In this document: piece after piece, positions 3,205-40,496 of the stretch
Layout: each line of letters opens with the position of its first letter
How positions within the stretch are numbered: position 1 is the stretch's first letter
NCBI GenBank assembly: GCA_946407095.1
Contig: CAMJMR010000019.1
Span: forward strand, 1 to 45,026
From: an uncultured Selenomonadales bacterium
GTDB lineage: Bacteria; Bacillota; Negativicutes; Selenomonadales; Selenomonadaceae
Reading direction: 5' to 3'
DNA length: 45,026 nucleotides
The notes under the pieces: generated by a model
What the model saw: only the letters and a program-made list of their open reading frames with translations
Told to the model about the DNA's origin: nothing
Database searches by the model: none
Made by a program: the position numbers and the translations under genes

Positions 3205-3284
3205 TTAATCTCCTCCTCAACGGTTGCTCAATCGGGCTTAAGTTATACGAATCTGCCGCATTTGTCAATGGCCGCGGTGTCCTT

Positions 3285-3378
3285 TCGTTTGCTAAGCAAA
3301 AGGGCTCAAAGACAGCTCGGCTTGACGGCGGCGGGCGTGCCCTTCGATTCGATGGTTCAATAATTTTATGTTTTGAAT
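3285..3378 (+). repeat. Left arm of the R1 repeat (outer segment)
   Basis: This stretch precedes the R1 hairpin core. Positions 3291-3317 are identical over 27 bases to 13700-13726. The word CCCTTCGATTC at 3340-3350 recurs at 15605-15615 and, inverted, at 26977-26987, each time at the same side of an R1 core or R1 remnant. The repeated unit is therefore longer than its three-hairpin core. Confidence 0.65.
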
Positions 3379-3540
3379 CTACTTTCTTTTGCACACCCAA
3401 AAGAAAGTAGCAAAGAAAAAGGTGCCTCGCAGGGGCGAAGGGTCGCAACCTGCGCCGCCCGATAGTTTCAGCGTGCTCGCGCCGACGGTTTTTGCATCAC
3501 GCAAAAGCGTCGGCGAGAGGCCGTCATCCATGACGGCCTC
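3379..3540 (+). repeat. R1 structured repeat, copy A (subclass I)
   Basis: It fills the fabK-plsX gap and has three hairpins in order. H1 (3379-3410) has arms CTACTTTCTTTT/AAAGAAAGTAG. H2 (3481-3514) has GCCGACG/CGTCGGC closing around the apex GCATCACGC. H3 (3517-3540) is a perfect 11-bp stem ending in GGCCTC around a central CC. Read along the minus-strand genes, H3 comes first. The rest of the 3205-3558 gap holds the R1 left arm and no gene. Confidence 0.85.
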
Positions 3541-3558
3541 TAAATTCGCGGCGTGCGC

Positions 3559-4545: not shown

Positions 4546-4582
4546 TTTTGCTCCTCCTTGGGGATTAGGATTAGAATTTAGA

Positions 4583-4745
4583 GGCGCGCAAGGACGCGCG
4601 CCGCCGGCAACAGAAACAAGGATGTTTCTTTGCCGGCACAGACGGCTGCGGGTAGGCGCAACGTTTCGCCGACGATGACTTAACGCCCCCGCGAGGCACC
4701 TTTTCTTTTTGCTACTTTTTCTTTGGGCGCGCAAAGAAAAAGTAG
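4583..4745 (-). repeat. R1 structured repeat, copy B (subclass II, inverted)
   Basis: It fills most of the 317-bp plsX-rpmF gap (4546-4862), where no gene is seen. Order on the plus strand: H3 (4583-4602, stem GGCGCGC/GCGCGCC), H2 (4603-4637, stem GCCGGC/GCCGGC continued by a GAAAC/GTTTC inner stem) and H1 (4712-4745, CTACTTTTTCTTTG/CAAAGAAAAAGTAG). It is the only intra-operon copy whose H1 comes first in the direction of transcription. Confidence 0.85.
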
Positions 4746-4862
4746 TTAATAAAAATTGAATTGAACTCATCAACCGCAGTACTGACCAACCCAAAATCTC
4801 CGTTCCCTAACAAAAAAAATAAGCAGGTGTTCAATGCCTGCCTAAAATAATTTCCTCCGTCT

Positions 4863-5039
4863 TCAAGCCGTTTCAATGACTTCTTTCCCGTCATAGTAAC
4901 CGCATTCCAGGCACACGTGGTGTTGGAGTTTAGGTTCATGGCATCTCGGACATTTTACGTAGTTCGGAGCTTCCAACTTCCAATTGGCACGCCGCCTGTC
5001 GCGTCTGCTTTTGCTGAGTTTTCTTTTAGGTGCCGCCAA
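4863..5039 (-). CDS. rpmF: 50S ribosomal protein L32
   Basis: This 58-residue protein was read directly from the minus strand. It starts MAAPKRKLSKSRRDRRRANW, the signature of bacterial L32. Two CxxC pairs (Cys30/33 and Cys43/46) form a zinc ribbon, so this is the zinc-binding C+ form. The start is TTG at 5039, eight bases after GGAGG. It lies 13 bp downstream of yceD, the usual pairing. No functional doubt; only the non-ATG start is inferred. Confidence 0.93.
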   Translation of the reverse strand: MAAPKRKLSKSRRDRRRANWKLEAPNYVKCPRCHEPKLQHHVCLECGYYDGKEVIETA

Positions 5040-5052
5040 CGCTCACACCTCC

Positions 5053-5505
5053 TCACGATAGATTTAAATCTTTTAACGCCGCAAGTCGCGGGTCGACGAT
5101 ATGTTTATCGCAACCGCAATCGCCGTCGTTCAAATTCGCGCCGCAAACGGGACACAAGCCCTTACAGTCCGCCTTGCAAAGATTTTTCATTGGCTGAGCG
5201 GCAAGCAACTCGTCCCGCAAAAGTTCAGTCACGTCAAGCAAGTCGTCAACCGCCTCCGACTTATCGAACTCTTCGGCGAACTTGTGCACTTGCCTTTCCG
5301 TCGCTTGAGTCAAACATCTGTCGCACGTGAAACTTTTTTGACACTCGATGCGCCCGCGAACGACGTAATTCTTGCCCGCGTCCTCGACTTCGCCGAAAAT
5401 CTTTATATCCGTGAAGTCGTCCAGAGGCTCGCCGAAAAGTTTTTCCGCCGCCGCGCTGAACTCGAAAGGAGCCTTGTCGCCCCTTGCCGTTGGCACTTTC
5501 GGCAT
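5053..5505 (-). CDS. yceD: YceD/DUF177 family protein
   Basis: The 150-residue protein has the DUF177 core: FTCDRCL in the middle and a C-terminal CKADCKGLCPVCGANLNDGDC metal-binding region. YceD-family proteins are almost always encoded just before rpmF, as here, and have been tied to 23S rRNA accumulation. An ATG 19 codons upstream exists, but the ATG at 5505 is preferred: AAGGCGG lies eight to nine bases before it and the family starts near this point. It is 37 bp downstream of asd and likely cotranscribed with it. Confidence 0.88.
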   Translation of the reverse strand: MPKVPTARGDKAPFEFSAAAEKLFGEPLDDFTDIKIFGEVEDAGKNYVVRGRIECQKSFTCDRCLTQATERQVHKFAEEFDKSEAVDDLLDVTELLRDELLAAQPMKNLCKADCKGLCPVCGANLNDGDCGCDKHIVDPRLAALKDLNLS

Positions 5506-5542
5506 TTTACAACACCGCCTTTTTTGTGTCAATGAAAATTTT

Positions 5543-6574
5543 TCAGACCAGCCCGTTGGCAATCATGTATTCGGCGATTTGCAAAGCGTTGAGTGCCGCG
5601 CCCTTGCGAATCTGGTCGCCGCAGACCCAAAGGTTCAAGCCGTGTTCAATCGAAAAATCTTTCCGAATGCGCCCGACTTCGACATCATCCTTGCCCGACG
5701 TCTCAAGCGGCTGCGGGTAAATCATTTCGGCGGGATTGTCGCTGACTTTGACACCGGGGAACTTTTCCAGAGTAGCGCGCGCCTCCTCGACCGAAACTTC
5801 GTCCGCGAATTCGACGTTGACGCTTTCGGCGTGTGAGCGATAGACGGGCACGCGAATCGTCGTGGCGGTGACTTTAAGCGCGTCGTCCTCCATGATTTTC
5901 TGTGTCTCGTTGACCATCTTCATTTCCTCTTTGGTGTAAAGATTGTCTTGGAAAACGTCTATCTGCGGCAGGAGGTTCGACGCGATTTGATAATGCTTGT
6001 CCAGCTTGGCGACGGGCAAAACTTTCGCCTCGACCTCCTCGCCGCGCGCCAATGCGTCCAGCTGCGATTTGAGTTCGTCCATGCCCTCGCGGCCTGCGCC
6101 CGACACCGCTTGATACGTCGACACGACCACTCGCTTGATTTTCGACAGGTTGTAAAGCGGCTTGAGTGCCATGACCATGATTATCGTTGAGCAGTTCGGG
6201 TTGGCGATGATTCCTTTGTGCCGTGCGATGGCTTGCGGGTTGACTTCGGGGACGACCAGCGGGACGTTCGGGTCCATGCGGAAGTTCGACGAATTGTCTA
6301 TGACAACCGCGCCCGCCTTGACTGCCGCCGGGGCAAAGAGTTTGCTCGCCGCGCCGCCCGCGAACAGCGCGATTTTCACGCCGTCGAAGGATTTTTCAGT
6401 CGTCTCCTCGACCGTGTAGTCTTTGCCCATGAAATGTATCGTCTTGCCCGCTGAACGCGCGCTTGCCAACATTTTCAGCTCGCCGAACGGGAAATTGCGT
6501 TCCTCGATGAGTTTCAAAAATTCTTGACCGACTGCGCCCGTTGCGCCGACTATTGCCGTGTTGTATCGTTTCAT
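5543..6574 (-). CDS. asd: Aspartate-semialdehyde dehydrogenase
   Basis: The 343-residue enzyme reduces aspartyl phosphate to aspartate semialdehyde with NADPH, feeding lysine, diaminopimelate, threonine and methionine synthesis. Residues 10-16 (GATGAVG) are the dinucleotide-binding loop and Cys128 in NPNCST is the catalytic thiol. The catalytic histidine is probably that in YRSHAES. Length and motifs fit the Gram-positive type. It heads the minus-strand group that continues into yceD, rpmF, plsX, fabK and fabD, so amino acid and lipid genes probably share a promoter (TTTACA/TATCAT just upstream). Confidence 0.96.
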   Translation of the reverse strand: MKRYNTAIVGATGAVGQEFLKLIEERNFPFGELKMLASARSAGKTIHFMGKDYTVEETTEKSFDGVKIALFAGGAASKLFAPAAVKAGAVVIDNSSNFRMDPNVPLVVPEVNPQAIARHKGIIANPNCSTIIMVMALKPLYNLSKIKRVVVSTYQAVSGAGREGMDELKSQLDALARGEEVEAKVLPVAKLDKHYQIASNLLPQIDVFQDNLYTKEEMKMVNETQKIMEDDALKVTATTIRVPVYRSHAESVNVEFADEVSVEEARATLEKFPGVKVSDNPAEMIYPQPLETSGKDDVEVGRIRKDFSIEHGLNLWVCGDQIRKGAALNALQIAEYMIANGLV

Positions 6575-23231: not shown

Positions 23232-23391
23232 CTACTTTCTTTCACCGAGGAAAGAAAGTAGCAAAGAAACTCGCCTCGCAGGGGCAGATATCAATCGTGG
23301 ACGAAGTGTCCGCGCTACCCGAAGCCGCTCGTTGCCGCTCACGACGCATCACGCGTCGAAACGCGGCACGGGGCGCGCGTCCATGCGCGCC
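23232..23391 (+). repeat. R1 structured repeat, copy D (subclass I)
   Basis: It lies between kdsC and the second PP-loop gene. H1 is 23232-23261. H2 (23334-23367) has an outer GCCGC/GCGGC and inner GACGC/GCGTC stem, different in sequence from copies A and C but with the same ATCAC apex. H3 is 23372-23391 (GGCGCGC/GCGCGCC). Confidence 0.85.
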
Positions 23392-24017: not shown

Positions 24018-24174
24018 CTACTTTCTTTCAGCGAAGAAAGAAAGTAGCAAAGAAATTCGCCTCGCAGGGGCGGAAGCCGACCACTTGTCCAACGCCCGCG
24101 TCCCAGTCAGCCGTGTGTGCGCCGCTACTTCGCATCACGCTCAGTACGCGGCGCGGCCGTCATCCATGACGGCC
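24018..24174 (+). repeat. R1 structured repeat, copy E (subclass I)
   Basis: It lies between kdsD and kdsC. H1 is 24018-24047. H2 (24119-24154) pairs GCGCCGCTACT with AGTACGCGGCGC, with one bulged C, around GCATCACGC. H3 is 24155-24174 (GGCCGTCAT/ATGACGGCC, as in copy A). Confidence 0.85.
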
Positions 24175-26787: not shown

Positions 26788-26947
26788 GGCGCGCATGGAC
26801 GCGCGCCGCCGGCAACAAAAACATGGAAGTTTTTTTGCCGGCACGGGCGATTTCGGGTTGCGCGGACGTTTCGTCAACGGTTAGTATCCGCCCCGCGCGT
26901 AGCGGTGGCTTTCTTTGCTACTTTCTTTCGCCGGTGAAAGAAAGTAG
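26788..26947 (-). repeat. R1 structured repeat, copy F (subclass II, inverted)
   Basis: It lies in the divergent 358-bp gap between kdsB and ctpA, which holds no gene. H3 is 26788-26807 (GGCGCGC/GCGCGCC), H2 is 26808-26842 (GCCGGCAA/TTGCCGGC with an A/T-rich inner stem) and H1 is 26918-26947. The left arm with GAATCGAAGGG follows at 26977-26987. Confidence 0.85.
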
Positions 26948-28444: not shown

Positions 28445-29527
28445 ATGCTTCAGAAACTGATAAACAAATTGAACGACTTGCGGCCTCGGCAGCTGGCTAT
28501 GCTGGCGGTCGGCGCGGCAGTGCTGATGTTCATTACGGTCTATTTCGGCATGAGTTTGCTGACAAAGCAAGAAATTATCGTTCAGCCCGAAACGCCTCCG
28601 CCGCCTCCGCCCGTGGAGGAAAAAGTTGCGGTCGTCGTCGCCAAGACAAGTATCCCGCCGCGCACGCGCATTCAAGAAACCATGCTCCAAATGAAGGAAT
28701 TGCCGCCCGAATTGGTGCCCGAAGGCGCTATTAAAAGTTTCAGCGACGTGCTGAACGTTCAGGTCAAAGTTTCCATTTTCCCCGGCGATGTGCTCACGAT
28801 TCAAAAGGTTTTCGCCGATAAAAGCGCGGAGGGCTTCGTCGGGACAATCCCGCCCGAATGCCGCGCAGTTTCCATAAACGTAAACGAAATTACGGGCGTG
28901 GCGGGCTTCGCGAAGGCTGGCGACTTCGTCGACTTGATGCTCACGGAAAAAAGCGACTACAGCGCGACGACCACCATTATCCTGCAAAACGTGCAGCTCC
29001 TCGGCATAAATCAGGATATGGGCAACAGCATGCTTGATACGGGCAGCGGCTCGGCGATAAGCAACCCGACTATCGCGACGTTCGCGCTCTACCCAGACGA
29101 CGTGCTGAAATTAATTTCCGCGTCGAAGCTCGGCGATATCTACATGTCACTGCGCCCCGCCAATCCTTACAACAATTACGTCGACAAGGTAGAGTATACG
29201 ATTGAATCAATCAACGCGCCGCCCAAACCGCAGCCTGTAGTCGTTCCTGCCATCCCCGATGCAAATCTGCCGCAATTACCCAACGGATCCGTGACGTTGC
29301 CCACGCCGAAAATCGAAATCATTCAAGGCGACGAAATTGTTCAGAAGGTGGTGGAGGCTCCCGTTATCGTGATGCCTTCAGACAGTAGCTCGCCGACGGG
29401 TACCAATCCTCCGTTGCCCGTCATACCTTCGCGCCCGTCAGCACCCGTTCAGGCCTCGCCTGCCTCGGCGGCTCTGGCGGACGTGCCTTTTGCCAATTCT
29501 CGCGTCATCGCGGGCGGCAATCGTTAA
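28445..29527 (+). CDS. cpaB: Flp pilus assembly protein CpaB/RcpC
   Basis: The 360-residue protein has a membrane segment (about residues 16-40), a run of prolines (PPPPPP), an SAF domain (about 60-125, with the pattern ARTRI-like IPPRTRIQETML and FPGDVLTIQKV) and the RcpC-type beta domain (CRAVSINVNEITGVAGFAKAG). The last 90 residues are rich in Pro, Ser and Ala. CpaB/RcpC works with the secretin in the envelope part of the Tad apparatus. GAGGGG precedes the ATG by five bases. The secretin gene starts 15 bp after its stop, so the two are cotranscribed. Confidence 0.93.
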   Translation: MLQKLINKLNDLRPRQLAMLAVGAAVLMFITVYFGMSLLTKQEIIVQPETPPPPPPVEEKVAVVVAKTSIPPRTRIQETMLQMKELPPELVPEGAIKSFSDVLNVQVKVSIFPGDVLTIQKVFADKSAEGFVGTIPPECRAVSINVNEITGVAGFAKAGDFVDLMLTEKSDYSATTTIILQNVQLLGINQDMGNSMLDTGSGSAISNPTIATFALYPDDVLKLISASKLGDIYMSLRPANPYNNYVDKVEYTIESINAPPKPQPVVVPAIPDANLPQLPNGSVTLPTPKIEIIQGDEIVQKVVEAPVIVMPSDSSSPTGTNPPLPVIPSRPSAPVQASPASAALADVPFANSRVIAGGNR

Positions 29528-29542
29528 TGTTGAGGACTTATC

Positions 29543-31432
29543 ATGAATCATTCATTCTTAAAAAATTTTTTCTTGACGGCGGCGGCGTTTTCTTGTCTCG
29601 CGTCGACCGCGCAGGCCATGCCCGAAACTTTAAGCATAAATCTCAAAACGTCTCACTACATGGATATGAAACAGCCCGTCAAGCGAATCGCCGTAGGCAA
29701 TCCGACTGTGGCGACGGTCATTCAGTTGCCGGGCTCGGTCAGCGAATTTTTAATCGTTACTAAAGAAAATCCCGGCTCAACCGCGCTTTACGTCTGGACT
29801 GCCGACGGCACTCGTCACGAATATCTGATCGTCGTCACGCCCGAAGACCCGGGGCAAGCCATGCTTATCGAACAGGCTATCGGGCTCCCCGATGTTCACG
29901 TCAAAATGGTCGGGCAACGCATCCTGCTCACGGGCACCGTCGAAAATCAATACGAAAAAAATTACGCGCTTCAAACGGCGCGGCTTTTCGTCAATGCAGG
30001 CTCGGACAGCAGTTTGCTTGTCGGCAGCGGCTTCGATATGGACTTGGAAACCGATACCGCGCAGAGTGCAGAGAGCGGCAGGTCGGGCACGCTTGAGGCA
30101 AGCAAATCCGAAACGAACGGTCAAATCATTGACTTGTTGCAAATCCGTCACCCGACGCAAATTCGCCTTGAGGCTCAAATCATCGAAATCAATTCCGACA
30201 ACGCGAAGGACTTGGGGCTTCAATACGGCACGAGCGGCAGCGGCGGCGTCTTCAGCTTCGGCGAAGGCTATACCGACCGCTTGCACACCTCCGTAACGGA
30301 AACTTGGACGGAAAGCGGCTCAGGTGCTTACAACAGCGGCAATTCCAACACTTTCAGCGGCAGTGCTAACGATTCTTACAGCGGCTCCAACACGAATTCT
30401 TACAGCGGCGGACGAACGAATTCCTACAGCGGCTCCACTTCGAGCGATTCGGGCAACAGCTACACCACCGGCTACAACAATTCCTATACCAACGGCTACA
30501 GCGACTCTTCCGGCAACGGCTACAACAACAGCTACAGCGGCAGCAGGAATGACGCTTACAACGACAGCCTCAATCAGCAATTCAGCCGCGTGATAACGTC
30601 GTCGTGGAACGATATGGTTCAGTTCAGCAACAACCCGCTCAAGTGGATTGGTCAGCACTTCGCGCCCGTCAATGCCACGCTTAACCTTTTGGTCACGCAG
30701 AACAAGGCAAGAATTCTTTCGCGACCGAGCGTCATGACATTAAGCGGCGAGCAGGCGACGATTCAAATCGGCGGCAAAATCCCCTACGAAACGACAAGTG
30801 CCGTCGGCTCTTCCAACGTCTCCTTTGAAAATTACGGTATCATTTTGCAATTCAAGCCCATCGTCGACGCGCAGAATCGAATCAACTCAATGATTCACGC
30901 CGAGGTCAGCAATATCAGCGGGCAAGCAGTCAACGGCAGACCGATTATCTCCACGCGCAGTGCCGATTCGGTTATCAGCTTGAATTCGGGCGCGCCCGTC
31001 GTTATCGGCGGACTGATGGACTCATCCGAGACAAAGACCGTTGAAAAAATTCCGTTCCTTGGCGATATCCCGATTCTGGGCGAATTCTTCAAGCACACGT
31101 CAAAATCCAGGGACAAGCGCGAAATTATAATCGTCGTGACGCCCTACCTTGTCGGCGAGGATGAAATTGCTCAAACGCCGATGTCCAGACCCATGCGCGA
31201 ATGGATCCTTCAAGAGTACGATTATCGTCAAGCAATGGAAAACGTCGACATGACCAGACCTTACGAAGAGCCCGAACTTGTCGACGAAGCGCGCGATAAA
31301 GATTCGGATAGAATTTTGCCGCCCAGCCGCCTCAAGCCCAAGACGGACAAGCTTGACGAAAAATCCGACGACGAGTCCGAAGACGACAACACCGTTTACA
31401 TTGCGCCCGAAAAAGCGGAAGATCCCTTTTAA
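29543..31432 (+). CDS. cpaC: Tad pilus outer-membrane secretin CpaC/RcpA with a Tyr/Ser/Asn/Gly-rich insert
   Basis: The 629-residue protein has a signal peptide (cut after AQA, residue 25), an N-terminal pilus-assembly/BON-like region (26-165), a low-complexity insert (about 250-345), the secretin domain (about 375-535, with LSRPSVMTLSGEQATIQIGG and the closing IPFLGDIPILGEFF) and an acidic tail. It should form the pilus channel in the outer membrane. The insert is made of short NSYSG/NTNSYSG-like units and lies just before the secretin core. Usual family members are about 450-520 residues; the insert and tail explain the excess. Confidence 0.93.
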   Translation: MNHSFLKNFFLTAAAFSCLASTAQAMPETLSINLKTSHYMDMKQPVKRIAVGNPTVATVIQLPGSVSEFLIVTKENPGSTALYVWTADGTRHEYLIVVTPEDPGQAMLIEQAIGLPDVHVKMVGQRILLTGTVENQYEKNYALQTARLFVNAGSDSSLLVGSGFDMDLETDTAQSAESGRSGTLEASKSETNGQIIDLLQIRHPTQIRLEAQIIEINSDNAKDLGLQYGTSGSGGVFSFGEGYTDRLHTSVTETWTESGSGAYNSGNSNTFSGSANDSYSGSNTNSYSGGRTNSYSGSTSSDSGNSYTTGYNNSYTNGYSDSSGNGYNNSYSGSRNDAYNDSLNQQFSRVITSSWNDMVQFSNNPLKWIGQHFAPVNATLNLLVTQNKARILSRPSVMTLSGEQATIQIGGKIPYETTSAVGSSNVSFENYGIILQFKPIVDAQNRINSMIHAEVSNISGQAVNGRPIISTRSADSVISLNSGAPVVIGGLMDSSETKTVEKIPFLGDIPILGEFFKHTSKSRDKREIIIVVTPYLVGEDEIAQTPMSRPMREWILQEYDYRQAMENVDMTRPYEEPELVDEARDKDSDRILPPSRLKPKTDKLDEKSDDESEDDNTVYIAPEKAEDPF

Positions 31433-31491
31433 TTAGGAAGACGTTGCAGGGGACAGAGGCGCGCATGGACGTGCGCCGCCGGCAACAAAAA

Positions 31492-31586
31492 GCAACGTGA
31501 ACGTTGCATCCAGATTGCGCGTTGAAAATTGTCGACGGCTATAGGGTGTCGCCACGCCCTTACTGTTCCCCCGCTTTCAAAGCGGG
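31492..31586 (+). mobile_element. R2 unit 1, inserted in the H2 loop of R1 copy G
   Basis: It is about 95 bp, starts with the hairpin GCAACGTGAACGTTGC and ends with the hairpin CCCGCTTTCAAAGCGGG. It carries no reading frame. The flanks join into an intact H2 stem if it is removed. Confidence 0.75.
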
Positions 31587-31668
31587 TTTTTGCCGGCACA
31601 GACGGTTTCGGGTAGCGCGGACGTTTCGGCGGTGGTCGGCTTCCGCCCCTGCGAGGCGGGTTTCTTTG

Positions 31669-31763
31669 GCAACGTGACGTTGCATCCAGATAGCGCGTTG
31701 AAAGTCGTCGACGGCTTAAGGGAGAACGCCGCGTCCCAACTGTTCCCCCGCTTTTAAAGCGGG
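31669..31763 (+). mobile_element. R2 unit 2, inserted in the H1 arm of R1 copy G
   Basis: It is about 95 bp, same ends as unit 1 (GCAACGTGACGTTGC, CCCGCTTTTAAAGCGGG) and the same orientation. The middle differs from unit 1 at many positions, so the two are separate insertions or an old duplication. Confidence 0.75.
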
Positions 31764-31828
31764 TCTTTCGCCGGTGAAAGAAAGTAGATTTAACTGCCAA
31801 CAAACACTTATGGAACGGAGGGAATTTT

Positions 31829-32677
31829 ATGGCAGTCGCAACACAAAATTCTATCGAACGCGGCAGCGTTATAATCAGCGTATTCAGCACGACGCCCGGT
31901 ATCGGCAAAACCATTATCGCCATTAATTTGGCGGCGGGCTTGGCGCATGAAGGGTACAAAGTCTGTCTTGCCGACCTCGATTTGCAATTCGGTGACGTGT
32001 TGAATTACCTGAAACTTTCCTCCGTCAACACGGTTGCGGGTGCTCAACGCGCCATGCTTGACCACCCCGACAAATTTCGTATCGGCGATTTTCTTATGGA
32101 ATACAATCACAGCGGCGTAAGCTTTTTCATTTTGCCCGCGCCGCTCTACGTCTATGACGCCTATCAGACCGACATTCAAATCGTCTCCGATATCATCACT
32201 CACCGCCTGAATTACTTCGATTACGTCGTCCTGGATTTGAATTCCATGTTCAGCGCGCTGAATTTGGCCATGCTAGACGTAAGCACGGTTATAAACTACG
32301 TCGGCGTTATTGACTTCCTGCCCGCACTAAAAAATTACAAAATCGGCTACGACACGCTGATTCGCTTTGAATACGAGGAAAGTAAGATTCGGCTTGTCGA
32401 AAACCGCGCAGATTCGCAGAAACTGATTGAGGGCAGCGACGTCGAAAGACTTTTGGGCGAGCCGTTCTATCACCGCCTGCCCAACGATTATCCTTCCGTC
32501 AACAAGTCAATCAACACGGGGCAGCCGCTGATGTTCGCCGCGCCCGATTCCAAGCTGACCAAAAGCTTCGATGCGCTTGTCGGGCTCTACACCAATCGCC
32601 AAGGCACCGGCAAACCCGCAACGTTGACTGACGGCGGCGGGTTCTTCGGCGGTATCAAAAAATTTTTCGGCTTCTGA
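31829..32677 (+). CDS. tadZ: TadZ-like MinD/ParA-family ATPase lacking the signature lysine
   Basis: The 282-residue protein lacks a receiver domain. Its deviant Walker A reads TTPGIGKT (residues 21-28): the P-loop lysine (Lys27) is present, but Thr22 stands where the signature lysine is expected. The LADLDLQFGD (47-56) and YVVLDLNS (132-139) stretches give the switch and Walker B-like parts. The last 14 residues (269-282, ending IKKFFGF) look like a MinD-type amphipathic membrane anchor. In the Tad family such proteins place the pilus machine at a cell pole or site. ACGGAGGG precedes the ATG. The next gene encodes a second, complementary ATPase. Confidence 0.85.
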   Translation: MAVATQNSIERGSVIISVFSTTPGIGKTIIAINLAAGLAHEGYKVCLADLDLQFGDVLNYLKLSSVNTVAGAQRAMLDHPDKFRIGDFLMEYNHSGVSFFILPAPLYVYDAYQTDIQIVSDIITHRLNYFDYVVLDLNSMFSALNLAMLDVSTVINYVGVIDFLPALKNYKIGYDTLIRFEYEESKIRLVENRADSQKLIEGSDVERLLGEPFYHRLPNDYPSVNKSINTGQPLMFAAPDSKLTKSFDALVGLYTNRQGTGKPATLTDGGGFFGGIKKFFGF

Positions 32678-32725
32678 AGTTTTGAGTTAGGGCATGTTGG
32701 TAAGGAACAAGTTGCAAAGGACGAG

Positions 32726-32907
32726 GCCGCCCATGGATGGGCGGCGCGAACGCTTACCAGCGCGCGTTCGCCCACTTGAAACCTGGAAGGTTTCATAGCG
32801 GCACGAGCGGCTTCGGGTTGCACGGGCGTTTCGGCGGTAGTCGGTATCCGCCCCACGCGCAGTGGTGGCTTTCTTTGCTACTTTCTTTCGCCAGTGAAAG
32901 AAAGTAG
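32726..32907 (-). repeat. R1 structured repeat, copy H (subclass II, inverted)
   Basis: It fills the 315-bp gap between the two ATPase genes (32678-32992), which holds no gene. H3 is 32726-32745 with stem GCCGCCC/GGGCGGC, a sequence found in no other copy. H2 is near 32770-32803 (inner stem GAAACC/GGTTTC). H1 is 32878-32907. An extra CGAACGC/GCGTTCG stem lies between H3 and H2. Confidence 0.85.
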
Positions 32908-32992
32908 TTAAACTGATTTAAAAGTCATTGAAACGCCACGTCGGAGCCGACAACTTGCCAATACACCCCTTGTCCCTTAGGAGGTTTAAGCT

Positions 32993-34117
32993 GTGGCTTA
33001 TCGAGTCATAATAATCGAAGACAATCAAGACCTTTTGGACGACATGGTTGTTACGCTCAGGCGTTCGCCCGATTTTGAAGTCGCGGCAACCTACAAGAAC
33101 GCCAACGCCGCGATTAATCCGTCGTCGATGTTCCACCCCGACCTGTTCCTTATGAACGTTGAGGATGACGATTCCATTGAAATTATTCCTGATTTCGTAG
33201 CCCGTTTCCCCGGCGCGTTTATTCTCGGCATGATGAGCAATTGGGATGCGCTCACTGCCCGCAACGTCATGCAGGGCGGAGCAACGGGTTGCATTCTAAA
33301 GCCCTTCACTGCCAAAGACGTCCTGGAATATCTGCAACTCTATTCCGCGCGCGGTCAACGCAAACCTGCGCGGCTAATCTCGTTTTTCAGCCCCAAGGGA
33401 CGCGCGGGCAGGACGACACTCGCGGCGATTCTTGCGCTGTTGCTCGCCGAAAAGACCGGCGAACGCGTCGCGCTGATTGATGCCGATTTGCAATTCGGAG
33501 ACTTGCCGATTTTCTTCGACGTGGAGCCCAAACGCACCGTCGTCGACGCCACGCAGGATATCGCCTTGCTGACGCCCGTGACGTTCGCGCCGTATTTCTT
33601 CCCGATTAAAGACGGCGTTTCGCTCTTGAGCAGCCCCGAACGTCCCGAATATGCCGAACTCGTCGCGCCCGAAGCTTTAACCGATGTCGTATTGATGTCG
33701 GGCAATATTTTCCGCTACGTCCTTGTCGACTTGCCCGCGGGTTTCAATCCCATTACGCTCAACATCTGCCGCATTTCCGACGTCGTCTTCGTCACGACGA
33801 TGATTAACAGCGGCTTTGAAGTCAACCACACTCGCAAGACCATGGAAATGTTCGCCGCGCAGGACGACGGCCGCCGCAAAGTTCATACGGTGTTCACGCG
33901 TGTCAATCCCTTCACCGAAGAAGAACGCCTGAAAATTTCGCTTAACCTCGGCTTCCCCGTCGACGTGATGATTCCGAACGAATACCGCATGATTTCCGTC
34001 GCCAACAGCGGACGCCTCGCCAAGGGCTTGCCAATGGATACTCTGCTCATGAAGACGATTAGCGGCATGGCCGACAAAATCATTGACGCGGGCGATAAAG
34101 CGGCGGCAGCAACGTAA
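32993..34117 (+). CDS. cpaE: CpaE/TadZ: pseudo-receiver plus MinD-like ATPase lacking the P-loop lysine
   Basis: The 374-residue protein has a receiver-like domain (1-118) and a ParA/MinD-like domain (125-374). In the receiver the acidic pocket (Glu9, Asp10) and Lys103 are kept, but the phospho-acceptor position is Asn55, so it is probably not phosphorylated. The deviant Walker A is PKGRAGRTT (134-142): the signature lysine (Lys135) is present but the P-loop lysine is Arg140. LIDADLQFGD (161-170) follows. It should direct Tad pilus localisation. TAGGAGG lies nine bases before the GTG start. It is separated from the first ATPase gene by an R1 repeat. Confidence 0.9.
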   Translation: MAYRVIIIEDNQDLLDDMVVTLRRSPDFEVAATYKNANAAINPSSMFHPDLFLMNVEDDDSIEIIPDFVARFPGAFILGMMSNWDALTARNVMQGGATGCILKPFTAKDVLEYLQLYSARGQRKPARLISFFSPKGRAGRTTLAAILALLLAEKTGERVALIDADLQFGDLPIFFDVEPKRTVVDATQDIALLTPVTFAPYFFPIKDGVSLLSSPERPEYAELVAPEALTDVVLMSGNIFRYVLVDLPAGFNPITLNICRISDVVFVTTMINSGFEVNHTRKTMEMFAAQDDGRRKVHTVFTRVNPFTEEERLKISLNLGFPVDVMIPNEYRMISVANSGRLAKGLPMDTLLMKTISGMADKIIDAGDKAAAAT

Positions 34118-34157
34118 CTTGTTCCTTGTTCCTAGTTCCTTACAGGAGGCAATTACC

Positions 34158-35117
34158 GTGATTGTCTTAGTGGCGTTTTTGTGTGCATTGGAGTTTTTCC
34201 TGGTCGTATTCTTCGGGCTGATGTTCTTCAGGCAAAATCGCAGCTTAAATCTGTTGCACCGCTTGCGCCGCCACGTCGACGACGACTCAAACCGATTCCA
34301 ACAGAGCGAAGACATCTACCGCCGCGCTATCAAACTGCTAAAGCGCACCGCAAAACCGCTCGGCAGATTCAATTTCACCAAAAGCCTCGACTTCAAGTTG
34401 CGGCAGGCGGGCATTCCGCTTTTCGGCGCGGAATTCATTATCGTTTCGCTTATCTGCGCATTCTTGGGCGTCATCCTGCTTTACGTCATTACGCTCAACG
34501 TTTCAATCGCGATGGCAACGGGTTTCGCAATACCGTTGCTCTTATGGCTGTGGGTCGTGGTTTTGGTTAATCGGCGGCGCAAGGCTTTCACCGAACAGCT
34601 CGGAGATTGCTTGACGACGGTCGCCAATGCATTGCGGGCGGGCTACAGCTTCCAGCAGGCAATGGACGTTGTCGCGAAGGAAATGGAGCCGCCTATCAGC
34701 ACCGAATTTGAACGCATGTCAACTGACGTGGCAATGGGCGTGACGCTCGAAGACGCCATGGAGCAAATGAACAAGCGCGTCGGCAGTGCTGACTTTGACT
34801 TGGTCGTCACGGCGGTTTTGATTCAGCGCGAAATCGGCGGCAACCTCGCTCAAATCCTCGACACCATAAGCGAAACCATTCAAGAGCGCATCCGCATGAA
34901 ACGCGAAATAAACGCGCTCACCGCGCAGGGCAGATTTTCCGCCGTCGTCCTGCTCATGTTGCCTATCGTCGTCGCCGTCTTCTGCTGGATTTTCAACCAC
35001 GAACAAATGCAACTCTTCGTCACCGAGGAGGTCGGCCATATCGCTATCGGCGTCGCCATAGTCTTGGAGATTCTCGGCTATATCATTATCCAACGAATCG
35101 TCGACATTGAAGTATGA
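34158..35117 (+). CDS. tadB: Tad pilus inner-membrane platform protein TadB
   Basis: The 319-residue protein has an N-terminal membrane helix, two more helices near residues 95-135 and a type II secretion F domain (about 150-275, GDCLTTVANALRAGYSFQQA and REIGGNLAQILDTIS), then two C-terminal helices. It pairs with TadC under the TadA ATPase. The GTG at 34158 is chosen because AGGAGG lies eight bases upstream; an upstream extension overlaps the cpaE end. Unusually, flp and tadE come between it and tadA. Confidence 0.93.
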   Translation: MIVLVAFLCALEFFLVVFFGLMFFRQNRSLNLLHRLRRHVDDDSNRFQQSEDIYRRAIKLLKRTAKPLGRFNFTKSLDFKLRQAGIPLFGAEFIIVSLICAFLGVILLYVITLNVSIAMATGFAIPLLLWLWVVVLVNRRRKAFTEQLGDCLTTVANALRAGYSFQQAMDVVAKEMEPPISTEFERMSTDVAMGVTLEDAMEQMNKRVGSADFDLVVTAVLIQREIGGNLAQILDTISETIQERIRMKREINALTAQGRFSAVVLLMLPIVVAVFCWIFNHEQMQLFVTEEVGHIAIGVAIVLEILGYIIIQRIVDIEV

Positions 35118-35148
35118 AAATATTATGAATTAAGATTTCATTAAGTAC

Positions 35149-35176
35149 TTGCATTTTTCCGCGCAAGGTGTATAAT
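35149..35176 (+). promoter_or_regulatory. Strong promoter of flp
   Basis: TTGCAT (35149-35154), a 16-bp spacer and a perfect TATAAT (35171-35176) lie in the 121-bp gap before flp. A separate strong promoter fits the need for much more pilin than assembly protein. Confidence 0.75.
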
Positions 35177-35238
35177 ACACATGCTTGAGTAATGATTAAG
35201 CACGTGATTAATTAAATCTCAAGAAGGAGGAGATAATC

Positions 35239-35445
35239 GTGTTACAGTACATCACTAAGCTTCTCAAGAAGCTCAAGAGTTCCGAAAAGGGACAAGGCAT
35301 GGTCGAGTACGCGCTCATCATCGCTTTCGTCGCGGCAATCGCCATCTTCGTCCTCAACGGCGGCCTCAGGAGTGCAGTCAGCAGTGCCTTCGACACCGCA
35401 AGCCAGGCAGTCAACAGCGCGGCAGCTGTGTCCACCTCTAAATAA
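35239..35445 (+). CDS. flp: Flp-type major pilin
   Basis: The 68-residue precursor has a short charged leader and a processing site KGQGMVEYALII: cleavage after the first Gly places Glu at +5 and Tyr at +6, the Flp signature. A hydrophobic helix (about residues 24-40) and an Ala/Ser-rich tail follow. It should be cut by a TadV prepilin peptidase, not encoded in the window. The GTG start has AAGGAGGAG upstream. It has its own promoter. Confidence 0.95.
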   Translation: MLQYITKLLKKLKSSEKGQGMVEYALIIAFVAAIAIFVLNGGLRSAVSSAFDTASQAVNSAAAVSTSK

Positions 35446-35560
35446 GTCAAAACTGACGGCTGATTAAGCTCTGTTGACGGAACTCACAAAAACCAAGACG
35501 GCGGGTCAATTCTGCCGGAAAACCAAGAACGACTAACCTAAACGAAAGCAAAACAAGGAA

Positions 35561-35608
35561 GCGGCGATAATTCTCCTGCCTGCAACGGGCTACGGGAAAT
35601 ATCGCCGC
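35561..35608 (+). terminator. Stem-loop between flp and tadE
   Basis: A perfect 9-bp stem GCGGCGATA/TATCGCCGC encloses a 30-base loop. Only a broken T run follows (CTTGCTTTTAA), so it may be an attenuator or an mRNA stabiliser and not a full terminator. Confidence 0.5.
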
Positions 35609-35664
35609 TACTTGCTTTTAACGCCGAAAAATGCAATAATCCCCTTCGAAAGGCGGTGACTGAA

Positions 35665-36087
35665 ATGAAGAAGCAACGAGGTCAAACTTTAGTAGAATTT
35701 GCGCTGATGGCACCGATGATTTTCCTGCTCGTCTTCGCCATGATTTACGGCGGCGTCATGTTCATGGACTATCTGAACTTTTGCAATGAGGCTCGCACGC
35801 TTGCCCGCCGCATTGCCGTGGCAGACACCAATACACGCGCGGAATTGATGGCAACGTACAACACGGACACCGGTAAAGAGTTCGCGCGCTTTTACACGGT
35901 GAACATGACAGCCGGTTACAACTACGACGAAGACGATACTGAACAGAACACGCCCGTTGACGCAGTCGTTACGGTCACTTTTAATCGCGACAACAAAGAT
36001 TTGCCGTGGGTGGTTTATAAAATCGGCTTCCCGCCCGAAACATTCAGTATTAAGTACAGCATGAAGCTTGAGAAAGACAGAAGTTAG
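35665..36087 (+). CDS. tadE: TadE-like pseudopilin
   Basis: The 140-residue protein starts MKKQRGQTLVEFALMAP, a TadE-type prepilin site (Gly, then Glu at +5 in QTLVEF), followed by a hydrophobic helix. The rest is a small soluble domain with acidic residues (DEDDTEQ). Pseudopilins of this class are processed by the same peptidase as Flp. The ATG at 35665 is preferred to a GTG three codons upstream because AAGGCGG lies before it. It is followed by a 259-bp gap with R3 and R2-tail remnants. Confidence 0.88.
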   Translation: MKKQRGQTLVEFALMAPMIFLLVFAMIYGGVMFMDYLNFCNEARTLARRIAVADTNTRAELMATYNTDTGKEFARFYTVNMTAGYNYDEDDTEQNTPVDAVVTVTFNRDNKDLPWVVYKIGFPPETFSIKYSMKLEKDRS

Positions 36088-36104
36088 CGGCAGTTGGTAA
36101 TGTC

Positions 36105-36131
36105 AAACAGTGACGGTTATTTTTCCGCCTG
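36105..36131 (+). repeat. R3 short repeat, copy 2
   Basis: It is the exact inverse of 10812-10838 over 27 bases. The rest of the 36088-36346 gap includes GCGGGAAGCTAG (also near 44967) and a CCGCTTTCAAAGCGG hairpin like the R2 tail, but no gene. Confidence 0.7.
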
Positions 36132-36346
36132 ACTTCGTTGCCGCGCGCTCGACGGTCGCTTTTTAAGCGGGAAGCTAGAAATGCGCCGGCATTTCGTAAC
36201 GGCGCGGCGATAACGTTCAAAGTGTCGGACAGTGCGGCGCGCTATCTGTTCCGCCGCTTTCAAAGCGGCCGCCTCGTCATACGAAAAAATTCCTCGTCAC
36301 ATCCCGATTTTGAATTTACCGGCACGCTACAGCGGAGGGAAAATTT

Positions 36347-37885
36347 ATGGCGAGACCCTTATCTTTGCTTGAACGCTTGGGCGGCAAAAGGCAAGAGCCT
36401 CAAAAACAGCCCGAACGTCCGAACATACCGAAGCCCGAATCGCCGCAGCCGTCACAACAAGAGCAGCAACCGCCGCATCCGCAGCATCCGCACTTTCAGC
36501 ACCACGAACACGAAACTTATACGGAAAAGCAAATCCAACAGGAACGCGAGGCGGCAGTCGAAGCGTCGGCGTTCGCGGGCAAACGTTTATCCTCTTCCAA
36601 AAGCGACACCATGCAAGAAATCAAGTTGGCAGTGCACCGCCGCATTGTCGACGAAATGACGCCCGAAGAGCAACAAATTTTGGTGCGCGGCGAAGAGGCT
36701 CGCGAACAGATTAAAAATATCATTTCGGTGTACAGCGGGCGCGAATTGGCGGAAAGTGCCTACACCCTGACGCGCGGCGAACGCATTCAGCTCGTCGACG
36801 ACATAAGCAACGAATTGCTCGGCTTGGGGCCGCTTGAACCGCTCCTTCAAAACGACAGCATAACTGAAATCATGGTCAACGGTCCGCGACAAATTTTCAT
36901 TGAACAGCGCGGCAAGCTCAAACTGACGGACATCCACTTTTACGACAACGCGCACTTGATGAACATAATCGAACGAATCTTGACGCCGTTGGGCAGGCGC
37001 GTCGACGAAAGCAGTCCTTTGGTAGATGCCCGCCTTGCCGACGGCTCGCGCGTCAATATCATAATTCCGCCGCTGTCACTGGTTGGCCCCGCCGTCACTA
37101 TCCGAAAGTTTTCCAAAAAGGCACTGTCGATTGACGACCTGGTAGGCTTCGGCACGCTCAGCGACGATATGGCGACTTTCCTTGACGCGTGCGTTCGGGC
37201 GCGGCTGAATATCTTGGTAAGCGGCGGCACGGGCTCCGGGAAAACCACGACGCTCAACGTCCTGTCGTCGTTCATACCGCACACCGACCGAATCGTTACG
37301 ATTGAGGACGCGGCGGAATTAAAACTTCAACAGACGCACGTCGTGACGTTGGAAAGCCGCCCCGCCAACTTGGAAGGAAACGGCGCGATAACCATTCGCG
37401 ACCTGGTTAGGAACGCCTTGCGCATGAGACCAGACAGGATTATCGTCGGCGAAGTTCGTTCGGGCGAGGCTCTTGACATGTTGCAGGCGATGAATACCGG
37501 TCACGACGGCTCCTTGACGACAGCCCACGCCAATTCCCCGCGCGACGTTGTCAGCCGCCTTGAGACGATGGTTTTGATGGCGGGCATGGAATTGCCTGTC
37601 CGCGCCGTCCGCACGCAAATTTCTTCCGCTTTGGATTTGATTATTCAGCAGTCCCGCATTCGCGACGGCTCCCGCAAGATAACTTACATCACGGAAGTGC
37701 AGGGCATGGAAGGCGATACGATTGTTTTGCAAGACCTGTTCCGCTACGTGCAGGACAGCATTGACGAGTACGGCAAATCCGTCGGTCACTACGAAAGCTT
37801 GGGCTTGATGCCGAACTTCATGGACAAGTTCAAAATGAACGGCGTCGACCTGCCCAGGACGTTTTTCACCAGCGGGCGGAGGTGA
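36347..37885 (+). CDS. tadA: Tad pilus assembly ATPase TadA/CpaF
   Basis: The 512-residue protein is a type II/IV secretion ATPase of the CpaF group. A Pro/Gln/His-rich N-terminus (about residues 15-65) is followed by a helical N-domain and the ATPase core: Walker A GGTGSGKTTT (about 291-300), TIEDAAELKL, the RMRPDRIIVGEVRSGEA Walker B region and the histidine in TTAHANS. It drives pilin polymerisation with TadB and TadC. GGAGG precedes the ATG. The gene stops six bases before the tadC start. Confidence 0.95.
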   Translation: MARPLSLLERLGGKRQEPQKQPERPNIPKPESPQPSQQEQQPPHPQHPHFQHHEHETYTEKQIQQEREAAVEASAFAGKRLSSSKSDTMQEIKLAVHRRIVDEMTPEEQQILVRGEEAREQIKNIISVYSGRELAESAYTLTRGERIQLVDDISNELLGLGPLEPLLQNDSITEIMVNGPRQIFIEQRGKLKLTDIHFYDNAHLMNIIERILTPLGRRVDESSPLVDARLADGSRVNIIIPPLSLVGPAVTIRKFSKKALSIDDLVGFGTLSDDMATFLDACVRARLNILVSGGTGSGKTTTLNVLSSFIPHTDRIVTIEDAAELKLQQTHVVTLESRPANLEGNGAITIRDLVRNALRMRPDRIIVGEVRSGEALDMLQAMNTGHDGSLTTAHANSPRDVVSRLETMVLMAGMELPVRAVRTQISSALDLIIQQSRIRDGSRKITYITEVQGMEGDTIVLQDLFRYVQDSIDEYGKSVGHYESLGLMPNFMDKFKMNGVDLPRTFFTSGRR

Positions 37886-37890
37886 GCGGC

Positions 37891-38880
37891 ATGATTTTCC
37901 TTGTCGCTCTGCTGACGGCGTTGTTGTTCGGAGTGTTCGTCTTCGCCTTGCTGAATTTGCGAACGAGCCCCGAAGCGCAGCTTAGGCAACGCCTGAACGA
38001 AATGATAGACAAAGCGGAGGCGGATCGTGCTTTAAACCCTAAGCAGCGGAAAAACGTCAAGCCGACCGTCGTCGAGATGCCGAAAATCGTTGAGCAGACA
38101 TTTTCGCGCCACAGAGAATTTCTCAATCGGGTAGTCCGCCCGTTTTTTGAATCGTTGAGCGAACGCCTGCAAAGGTTCGCGCCCGCCGAAATTCGCCTTC
38201 AGCTGGAGGATAAAATCTTCCACGCGGGCAAGCTCGGCGTCTGGGGCTTGAAGCGTGTCATAACGATTTGGTGCTTGTCGATTGTCGTTGCAACAGTCTT
38301 GGCAATCATGCTGATTCAAAGCACGGACTTGCACCCGCTGCAACGAATCATGACGATATTAATCGGCGCGTTCATCGGCGCGGTCATTCCGTTTGCGGTA
38401 TTGAACTCGGCGGTAAGGAACAGGCAAAAGGCACTTCGCAAGCAGTTGCCGGAATTCTTAGACCTTCTGTGCGTGAGCGTGCAAGCGGGCTTGTCATTCG
38501 ACGGCGCAGTAGGTAAAATGACGCGGCGAATGCGCGGACCGCTTATCGACGAGTTCAAGCGAATGCAAAACGACATTGCGCTGGGAATGACGCACCAATA
38601 CGCGCTGACGAACTTGGCGCGGCGTTGCGATTTGGAGGAAATTTATCTCTTCACGACCTCGGTAATACAAGCGGAAAAGTTAGGCACGAGCATGACGCGC
38701 ACGCTGAAGCAACAAGCGGACAACATGCGCGACCGTCACCGCCAGCACGTCAAGGCACAAGCTCTGAAAGCACCCGTCAAAATAATCTTCCCAATGGTTT
38801 TGTTTATCTTCCCGTCAATGTTCGTCGTGTTGCTCTTCCCTGCCGTATTATCGCTCCTTAGGAATTTGGGCGGAGGTTGA
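37891..38880 (+). CDS. tadC: Tad pilus inner-membrane platform protein TadC
   Basis: The 329-residue protein has an N-terminal helix, helices near residues 120-170, a type II secretion F domain (about 185-300, LPEFLDLLCVSVQAGLSFDG and EKLGTSMTRTLKQQ) and a C-terminal helix. The ATG at 37891 is used because GGAGG (ending in the tadA stop) lies eight bases upstream; a GTG three codons earlier overlaps that site. Coupling to tadA is likely. Confidence 0.93.
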   Translation: MIFLVALLTALLFGVFVFALLNLRTSPEAQLRQRLNEMIDKAEADRALNPKQRKNVKPTVVEMPKIVEQTFSRHREFLNRVVRPFFESLSERLQRFAPAEIRLQLEDKIFHAGKLGVWGLKRVITIWCLSIVVATVLAIMLIQSTDLHPLQRIMTILIGAFIGAVIPFAVLNSAVRNRQKALRKQLPEFLDLLCVSVQAGLSFDGAVGKMTRRMRGPLIDEFKRMQNDIALGMTHQYALTNLARRCDLEEIYLFTTSVIQAEKLGTSMTRTLKQQADNMRDRHRQHVKAQALKAPVKIIFPMVLFIFPSMFVVLLFPAVLSLLRNLGGG

Positions 38881-38897: not shown

Positions 38898-40496
38898 ATG
38901 GAAATTAACAAGGGTATTCGGGCGAGGGTTTTCTTTTTCTTTGCAATGATGGGAGCAATCCCGTTTTTGATTCTGGTTATCGCGGGCGGCTACAATGCCG
39001 TCGACGAGCTGGAAGACTTCAGCAAACAAAACAGCCTGCTGAGGAACGCAATTATTTCCGAACACGTGACAGACTTCATTTCCAAAAATCAAGCCGTATT
39101 GCGCTCGATCGCCTTGAGTCCGAAGCTTATCGAATATCTTCAGACACCGACCGACGAAGGGCGCGCATACGTCTCGAAATTGCTTTACGACACAGATTTT
39201 ATCTTCGACGACAATAACGTTACCGCTTTGACGGGTGCCGACGGTTGGCAAATCATTCGCACGGACGGCGCGACGCTCGTCAACTTGACCAAACGCCAAC
39301 ACTTCCAAGAGGCAATGAAGGGCAGAGGCTACATTTCCGACATTATCTCAAGCATGGCGACGGGCAAGATGATTATCGTCATAGAGGCTCCCGTCGTCGA
39401 CGCGAACGGCAAGGCGATAGGCATGGTGCAAAGGAATTTCAACCTTGCCGCCCTGCAAGACTTTGTTCAGAATCTCGACGACAGCGAAAGCTCAATCGTC
39501 GTCATGGACAGGACGGGGCGCATTATCGCCAATTCCGACAACATTCCCGGCCTAAGCGGCGGCTACAACATGGACAACAATTACAAGTTCCTTTTGGACA
39601 GGATTTACAACAGCAGCGGCGTCCTGCGCGATAACATTAACGGCGAAGATTCTTTGGCGACGTATTCGCGCAATATGGACACGGGCTGGATGATTGTCAC
39701 GATTCGCCCTTACCATTTCATTATGGATCAGGTTTACGACAAGGCGACCAAGGCGATTCTCTTCGGGCTGTTCATGCTGATTATCGGGATGCTGTTGGCT
39801 TATCTGCTTACCATTCGCGTGACCAAGCCTATTATCGAAATGACCGAGGTCGTCGACGAAATTGTAAGCGGCAAAATGCCCTCCGGTGAACTGGAAGTCA
39901 AAGGCGACGACGAATTCAAGCAGGTGGCGGTTGCCGTCAACAAACTCCGCTCCGAGCGCGACGCCTATCAGCTTGAATCCGAGCTGGACAAACTCACCGA
40001 GCTTTTCAACAAGAAGACCATGGAAAACCTTTGCAAGATGAAACTCAAGACTTTCAACGAGAACGAGTCGGCAAATGTTTTCATGGCACTCTACGTGATT
40101 GACCTTGATCATTTCAAGGAAGTCAACGACTTGTTGGGGCACCAGTTCGGCGATAAAGTCCTTGTCGAGTTCGCGAAGGGCTTGCGAAAAATTTTCCGCC
40201 CCAATGATTGTATCGGACGTTTCGGCGGCGACGAATTCGTCATCATCGTAGACAGCCTGCCGAATATGGAGGTCGTGATTCGCAAGGCGGAACAGATTAA
40301 ACAAATCGCTTTCAATCTGACGGTGGAGGACAGCTCAAAGTTCGTCACGGCGAGCATAGGCATCGCCATAGCACCGCAGAACGGGCGCACCTATGACGAC
40401 CTGTTTGCTTCGGCGGACAAGGCACTCTACCACGTCAAGCGCAACGGCAAGAACGGCTACTATTGCGAGCTGTTCGATACGGAAAGCGAGGCTTAA
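38898..40496 (+). CDS. Membrane diguanylate cyclase (Cache-HAMP-GGDEF)
   Basis: The 532-residue protein has a membrane helix (about 12-32), a periplasmic Cache-type sensor region (about 35-285), a second helix (287-306), HAMP (about 307-360) and a GGDEF domain. The active site RFGGDEF (Gly443 onward) is intact and RPND just upstream fits an inhibitory RxxD site, so c-di-GMP synthesis with product feedback is expected. It lies 17 bp after tadC and before the large TadG-like gene. This suggests that the signal controls pilus use locally. The ligand is unknown. Confidence 0.9.
   Translation: MEINKGIRARVFFFFAMMGAIPFLILVIAGGYNAVDELEDFSKQNSLLRNAIISEHVTDFISKNQAVLRSIALSPKLIEYLQTPTDEGRAYVSKLLYDTDFIFDDNNVTALTGADGWQIIRTDGATLVNLTKRQHFQEAMKGRGYISDIISSMATGKMIIVIEAPVVDANGKAIGMVQRNFNLAALQDFVQNLDDSESSIVVMDRTGRIIANSDNIPGLSGGYNMDNNYKFLLDRIYNSSGVLRDNINGEDSLATYSRNMDTGWMIVTIRPYHFIMDQVYDKATKAILFGLFMLIIGMLLAYLLTIRVTKPIIEMTEVVDEIVSGKMPSGELEVKGDDEFKQVAVAVNKLRSERDAYQLESELDKLTELFNKKTMENLCKMKLKTFNENESANVFMALYVIDLDHFKEVNDLLGHQFGDKVLVEFAKGLRKIFRPNDCIGRFGGDEFVIIVDSLPNMEVVIRKAEQIKQIAFNLTVEDSSKFVTASIGIAIAPQNGRTYDDLFASADKALYHVKRNGKNGYYCELFDTESEA

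Follow-up and report, generated by a model that had tools for sequence, protein, structure and literature searches.

Two adjacent TadZ/CpaE-like ATPases in a Selenomonadaceae Tad locus: a split pair with a possible composite ATP site

In a Selenomonadaceae genome of the Quinella type, the Tad pilus locus carries two neighboring genes, here called A and B, for TadZ/CpaE-like ATPases in which the two lysines of the Walker A motif are reciprocally distributed. Among 146 A-B pairs, the 144 A proteins with a readable motif all retain the P-loop lysine and all lack the signature lysine (0/144), and the signature lysine is present in every B protein (146/146), with the P-loop lysine kept in 77 and lost in 69. 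These counts give good support at the sequence level to the conclusion that A and B are a split pair. The evolutionary pattern also suggests that the two proteins share a composite site, which is the best of the explanations that we considered. We see about an even chance that A and B represent a single TadZ/CpaE protein split in two and form a heterodimer with one working composite site. More tentative, and short of an even chance, is the full account in which they are an obligate heterodimeric ATPase of the MinD/ParA type with a single composite site, derived from a duplicated TadZ by stepwise reciprocal loss, in which B first gave up its tail and A its signature lysine, A next lost its receiver, and B finally, several times over, lost its P-loop lysine.

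Results

The pair within its Tad locus

The window, by which we mean the whole stretch of 45,026 nucleotides that was analyzed, belongs to a draft genome of 2.6 Mb in 101 contigs (89% complete). Its nearest named relatives are Selenomonadales and Selenomonadaceae genomes, many with a ruminant origin in their titles and some named Quinella. Pfam matches of the neighbors and the list of open reading frames define a Tad pilus locus at 28445-38880 (Table 1), in which A and B adjoin the secretin gene and are accompanied by the platform proteins and CpaF that are expected around a TadZ/CpaE protein. Sequences resembling Shine-Dalgarno sites, read by eye, precede both start codons (GGAGGG before the ATG of A and AGGAGG before the GTG of B). 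The reading frame of the first platform protein probably has its true start downstream of 34117, and the short frame that follows it is presumably the Flp pilin, an assignment that we make from its GQGMVEYALI motif.

Table 1. Features of the Tad locus and of the A-B pair, in window coordinates.
Feature	Position	Strand	Description and basis
RcpC/CpaB	28445..29527	+	Pfam RcpC, SAF
RcpA/CpaC secretin	29543..31432	+	Pfam Secretin
Gene A	31829..32677	+	282-aa TadZ/CpaE-like ATPase without receiver; ORF, Pfam, alignments
A Walker A segment	31889..31912	+	TTPGIGKT, residues 21-28; translation, alignment
A C-terminal tail	32630..32674	+	DGGGFFGGIKKFFGF, putative amphipathic membrane anchor; sequence character
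A-B intergenic region	32678..32992		315 bases with 1 hairpin-repeat copy (32878-32907); sequence scan
Gene B	32993..34117	+	374-aa receiver plus TadZ/CpaE-like ATPase, no C-terminal tail; ORF, Pfam, alignments, fold match
B receiver domain	32993..33346	+	about residues 1-118; Pfam, alignment
B Walker A segment	33389..33418	+	SPKGRAGRTT, residues 133-142; ORF, alignment
TadB/CpaG platform protein	34083..35117	+	Pfam T2SSF; Tad name inferred from gene order
Probable Flp pilin	35212..35442	+	short ORF with GQGMVEYALI; ORF list
TadE-like minor pilin	35656..36087	+	Pfam TadE
TadA/CpaF motor ATPase	36347..37885	+	Pfam T2SSE
TadC/CpaH platform protein	37882..38880	+	Pfam T2SSF; Tad name inferred from gene order

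Two further features of the region were observed. Directly after the second platform gene lies a gene for a dCache-HAMP-GGDEF protein (38898-40496), so that these pili may be under c-di-GMP control. A short hairpin repeat, CTTTCGCC[AG]GTGAAAGAAAGTAG, occurs at 23232-23261, 24018-24040, 26918-26947, 31765-31787 and 32878-32907 (8 matches at these 5 places with up to 3 mismatches), and gene A is flanked by copies. Genome-wide, the repeat gave 70 matches with up to 2 mismatches on both strands, a count in which a near-palindromic copy can appear twice, and the reversed control gave 0.

Two proteins with opposite Walker A defects

The sequence-only reading had described two open reading frames with opposite Walker A defects, and alignment to KGGVGKT confirms both. 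Protein A has FSTTPGIGKT, which aligns as T22-P-G-I-G-K27-T, such that the P-loop lysine (K27) is present and a threonine (T22) replaces the signature lysine. Protein B has FSPKGRAGRT, aligned as K135-G-R-A-G-R140-T, with the signature lysine (K135) present and an arginine in place of the P-loop lysine. Neither protein of the window thus carries the full deviant Walker A motif of the ParA/MinD family (KGGXGK[S/T], with both lysines in one protein).

A ParA/MinD-type ATPase domain is recognized in A by sequence only (Pfam CbiA, AAA_31 and ParA) and in B both by Pfam (CbiA/ParA) and by the fold match of its modeled half. Of the pair, only B also matches Response_reg, and A has no receiver domain. 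Among the NCBIfam matches listed (for B the best 25 of 30), neither protein reaches the cut-off of any model. The model for KGGVGR-motif variant AAA ATPases (NF047398, cut-off 90) gives 36.1 bits for B and 20.1 for A, and B is therefore not a member of that family.

At its C-terminus, A has a basic tail rich in phenylalanine and tryptophan that ends in GGGFFGGIKKFFGF. The earlier description of this end as MinD-like holds for its sequence character, and the tail is a putative membrane anchor. The proposal that B carries a pseudo-receiver fares less uniformly. Position 55, which we take to be the phospho-acceptor of the receiver, is asparagine in the window, but aspartate stands there in 34 of the 67 order-level B rows with a non-lysine P-loop and in 58 of the 63 rows with lysine.

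Apart from the signature lysine, A appears to retain its nucleotide site. Residues N33, D49, D51, D56, D136, N192 and R193, which are presumed to line the nucleotide site, are kept nearly throughout, R193 less strictly than N192, and the Walker A and aspartate residues are among the invariant or nearly invariant columns of A. We rejected the idea that A gained a replacement lysine of its own, because no lysine conserved in more than 90% of A rows is absent from unpaired TadZ proteins. An older lysine, K168, is found in 133 of the 134 order-level A rows (arginine in the other) and is kept in unpaired TadZ proteins as well; it could substitute for the missing signature lysine.

A and B are inherited together

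Searches of 189 genomes of the order located at least 150 places with A, in at least 130 genomes, and 146 places with B, in 128 genomes (E values up to 1e-30). Among the places listed, only five A genes and one B gene are unpaired, each of them at the end of a contig. A and B are thus a paralogous pair inherited together, as expected for a heterodimeric NTPase, and A-B pairs also occur in further families of the class. Two genomes of the class (G195 and G205) each hold a pair and an unpaired TadZ in separate loci. Other loci of the class have one TadZ of 387-442 aa, or of 963 aa in L207, where it is fused to the secretin; this single frame (L207, 1973-4861), comprising the secretin and a receiver-ATPase TadZ, could be genuine or could have arisen in assembly.

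No third TadZ was seen in the 89% complete genome of the window, in which the other matches have E values of 2.5e-5 or weaker. Two scans of viral contigs for additional rows found no relative, and a plasmid search with A returned 12 records, all below 60% identity.

The 146 pairs comprise 129 distinct order-level and 17 class-level pairs. The order-level set has 134 A rows, of which four have no B and two end before the motif and are hence unreadable, and the window's own pair is in it twice (as L002 and L007). The class-level count leaves out L182, where B is cut, although the motif of L182 resembles those of its sisters L181, L183 and L184. Also outside the pair counts, but included in the tree, is L206, where three tandem TadZ genes (2330-5976) show a one-sided pattern like that of the pairs: the first lacks the signature lysine, the second has both lysines, and the third has glutamine in the P-loop. 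In a further locus (L107), a gene for an OrfB/TnpB-type transposase (2910-4019; Pfam OrfB_IS605 and Cas12f1-like_TNB) lies between A and B, both of which are open.

One loss is universal and the other recurrent

At the order level, the signature lysine is absent from A, and the P-loop lysine kept, in 127 of 127 readable rows. With the class included, all 144 readable A rows show this state, which is therefore not a matter of chance. In B, the signature lysine is present in 129 of 129 order-level rows, and the P-loop position holds lysine in 63, arginine in 61, glutamine in 3 and serine in 2. The 17 class-level pairs have an intact P-loop in 14 B proteins and arginine in 3. The two substitutions had been read as complementary and matched, which describes the window but is incomplete elsewhere, given that 62 of the 127 order-level pairs with both motifs readable combine the loss in A with an intact P-loop in B. 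When co-occurrence of the two substitutions was checked across pairs, it did not hold: that of A is universal and that of B is found in 69 of 146.

The history of the losses was followed on a quick tree that covers 168 ATPase domains, omits the motif columns and has SH-aLRT as its only support measure. The A rows, B rows and unpaired TadZ proteins fall on single sides with supports of 85, 62 and 51, respectively, and the rows of L206 form long branches. On this tree the signature lysine requires one change, which the A rows share with the first gene of L206. The P-loop lysine requires five changes, none of them among A rows; placed by motif, they lie in the Quinella-type clade, in L181-184, in L167, in L206 (its third, B-like gene) and in the unpaired TadZ of L219. 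Monophyly of the changed B rows was rejected (p-AU 0.020). Joining the main clade with L181-184 gave p-AU 0.033, and joining it with L167 gave p-AU 0.061, which is not a rejection. A joint origin of the two substitutions was rejected, because every readable pair has that of A, which also predates that of B on the tree. The substitutions are thus not one event, with that of A universal and older and that of B later and repeated.

K135 is kept in all 67 order-level B rows that have lost the P-loop lysine (the window counted twice), which argues that the signature lysine of B is retained for something other than a lysine-type site of its own. The replacement is mostly arginine (62 of the 67 changed order-level rows, again with the window counted twice). 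T141, D163, D170 and D246 are present in 67 of 67 order-level rows with a non-lysine P-loop and D165 in 66 of 67; D165 is changed only in L181, L183 and L184 (glutamate) and in L167 (asparagine). Since these other site residues are kept and arginine is a mild change, B can likely still bind nucleotide. N146, the asparagine of the main helix, is lost in the Quinella-type clade and kept in L167 and L181-184. Decay of the B site is therefore not uniform, because L181, L183, L184 and L167 keep only N146 and have D165 changed. At the position of A's N192-type asparagine, B has threonine or serine in most rows.

Two other positions near the motifs were compared. Residue 137 of B is basic in 130 of 130 order-level rows and glycine in 41 of 41 unpaired TadZ proteins, and in the outlying pairs it is asparagine (L195) or glycine (L196). 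Residue 24 of A is glycine in 66 of 66 readable rows whose order-level B partner has a changed P-loop, and in 10 of 62 whose B partner is unchanged. The link between this glycine and the change in B is weak, since it fits only two of the three events in pairs.

The features of one TadZ are divided between two proteins

For comparison we used 62 unpaired TadZ proteins, from 21 loci of the class and 40 loci of the same phylum with 41 genes, the latter loci chosen from the matches as 20 top-ranked and 20 lower-ranked. Of these 40 loci outside the class, 39 have one TadZ gene and one (L233) has two, about 3.7 kb apart. None of the 62 proteins has lost the signature lysine. Three of them (L219, L244 and L246) have an arginine P-loop (KGGVGR), with no partner seen. 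Relatives that hold a single gene with the same substitutions had been named as the case against a shared site. Among the places listed, A and B are apart only at contig ends, and the signature lysine is never lost in an unpaired TadZ, but the arginine P-loops of these three proteins do occur outside pairs.

The median start of the Walker A motif is residue 22 for A, 136 for B and 159 for unpaired TadZ proteins (n=41 for the unpaired), and the C-terminal extension has a median length of 29, 11 and 28 residues, all measured on stop-to-stop frames. At least two phenylalanine or tryptophan residues are found in the extension of 56 of the 59 A proteins measured, in that of none of the 59 B proteins and in that of 22 of the 41 unpaired ones (the rows of the window lying outside this count), and at least one in 59 of 59, 26 of 59 and 38 of 41, respectively. 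The amphipathic C-terminal tail of the TadZ/CpaE type is accordingly seen, as sequence character, in A and not in B, and the N-terminal receiver is present in B and absent from A, with the exception of L195 and L196. In these two outlying pairs, A still has a receiver and lacks the signature lysine, and B is already without the tail. They look like earlier stages, and the order of the stepwise losses is taken from their intermediate states. Searches confirmed a receiver in few unpaired TadZ proteins, namely those of L207 (Pfam) and L209 (CheY-type matches), and the unpaired TadZ of L248, at 247 aa, is too short for one. In two loci (L229, 3962-6532; L245, 3752-5932), TadZ ATPase domains form the last part of long open frames (857 and 727 aa, respectively).

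Fold models of A and B joined by a linker and read through gave a mean pLDDT of 60.9 and a pTM of 0.47 for the window, and 62.1 and 0.51 for L043; these are low-confidence values from alignments of 41 mostly close rows. In the window model, only the B half was comparable with known folds, matching ParA/MinD folds and CheY-type receivers.

Discussion

A possible composite site and its alternatives

If A and B form a face-to-face heterodimer of the MinD/ParA type, then the sandwich would hold four Walker A lysines, two at each site. Of these four, K27 of A and K135 of B are never lost in the rows compared, and the pair belonging to the opposite site consists of those that are. At the working site, nucleotide would sit on the P-loop of A, with K135, and possibly also the basic residue 137, contributed by B. 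At the second site, nucleotide on B would receive no signature lysine from A, and this site would be catalytically dead. The P-loop lysine of B would have become free to change once A had lost its signature lysine, since the second site was dead from then on, although B may still hold a nucleotide that stays unhydrolyzed. The earlier proposal of a composite-site heterodimer thus survives in its central point, that every readable pair keeps the P-loop lysine of A and the signature lysine of B and that the losses fall on the other two lysines, but not in the strict co-occurrence of the two losses. Retention at one site and loss at the other is seen for two lysines only, and B keeps most of its other site residues. 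By analogy with Caulobacter, A-B units might take the place of CpaE dimers around CpaF, with a tail, a receiver and a working ATP site present once per unit. MinD tails are reported to bind membranes only in two or more copies (PMC6803595), and an A-B dimer with its one tail would therefore need such a ring for firm anchoring.

Several observations count against this proposal, including the arginine P-loops without a partner, the two genomes that have an unpaired TadZ in addition to a pair, and the fact that loss of a lysine need not end activity. In particular, McdA (SGGQGKT) is reported to be a strong ATPase without a signature lysine (PMC9178275, PMC6328274), E. rectale TadZ to be active despite the loss of both lysines, through compensation by a lysine of an adjacent helix, and a mycobacterial MinD homolog to remain active when either lysine is mutated singly (both PMC10482377). 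It is thus conceivable, if unlikely in our judgment, that A and B are two separate homodimers in the same machine with no shared active site, where A would be active alone like McdA, perhaps by means of the nearly invariant K168, and B would be a receiver-bearing TadZ with a weak P-loop. The site residues that most B rows keep are compatible with this arrangement, as are the three unpaired proteins with an arginine P-loop, and a B protein with an intact P-loop (63 of 129 order-level pairs) could form its own homodimer. However, separate homodimers leave unexplained why B keeps its signature lysine constantly after the P-loop lysine is gone, why A never loses its P-loop lysine, and why receiver and tail are divided between the two proteins; nor does A have a conserved lysine that unpaired TadZ proteins lack.

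Alternatively, hydrolysis might be of little importance, with both proteins serving as scaffolds that place the pilus machine and their lysines drifting under weak constraint. A TadZ with Walker A deviations is reported to localize despite little or no ATPase activity (PMC13189830), and TadZ has been described as having an atypical Walker A motif and as binding ATP but showing low ATPase activity (PMC6668835). We consider drift improbable, because the pattern is one-sided, with five P-loop changes and one signature change of which none affects the P-loop lysine of A or the signature lysine of B, and because A is invariant or nearly so at its Walker A and aspartate positions. Less probable still is that A and B share one ring as alternating homodimers, or by receiver or tail contacts, with no nucleotide sandwich between them, for although six CpaE dimers, predicted to be homodimers, have been fitted around CpaF in Caulobacter with neighbors thought to touch through their receivers (PMC13170226), such a ring would leave the reciprocal lysine pattern unexplained.

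Because TadZ/CpaE is homodimeric and its Walker A motif erratic, what ATP binding and hydrolysis contribute to its function is unsettled. If nature has placed the nucleotide side and the trans-acting lysine on separate partners, the two roles could be mutated independently, and the pairs with an intact (77/146) and a changed (69/146) P-loop in B are a ready comparative series.

Comparison with known systems

In the mainly open-access literature that we searched, we found no description of a tandem pair of TadZ proteins and, among pilus-positioning ATPases, no heterodimer with split lysine roles. S. meliloti cpaE1 and cpaE2 are reported to belong to two separate clusters (PMC10934763). The closest relatives of A and B are the TadZ/CpaE proteins, such as E. 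rectale TadZ and Caulobacter CpaE, which they resemble in the position of their genes by the secretin and platform genes of a Tad locus, in the ParA/MinD fold, in an atypical Walker A motif, in the receiver (of B) and in an amphipathic-looking C-terminal tail (of A). The C-terminal amphipathic helix of Caulobacter CpaE is thought to reach the membrane (PMC13170226). TadZ/CpaE is, however, one protein for which homodimers are predicted or solved, whereas here two proteins divide the receiver, the tail and the Walker A lysines.

McdA, which positions carboxysomes, is like A in keeping the P-loop lysine and replacing the signature lysine, by serine in McdA and by threonine in A. Unlike A, McdA binds DNA, its partner McdB is unrelated, and the available portions of the McdA reports describe no paralogous partner ATPase. 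Going by the family name, the KGGVGR-motif variants of NF047398 resemble B in having a signature lysine and an arginine in the P-loop. The deviant Walker A ATPases of the MinD/ParA group, which are homodimers in the best-known cases, differ from the pair of the window in that neither A nor B has both lysines. Two paralogous NTPases of the SIMIBI class act as one unit in the Cfd1-Nbp35 complex and in the SRP54-FtsY heterodimer. These function in iron-sulfur cluster assembly and protein targeting, respectively, and their likeness to A and B would be one of mechanism only.
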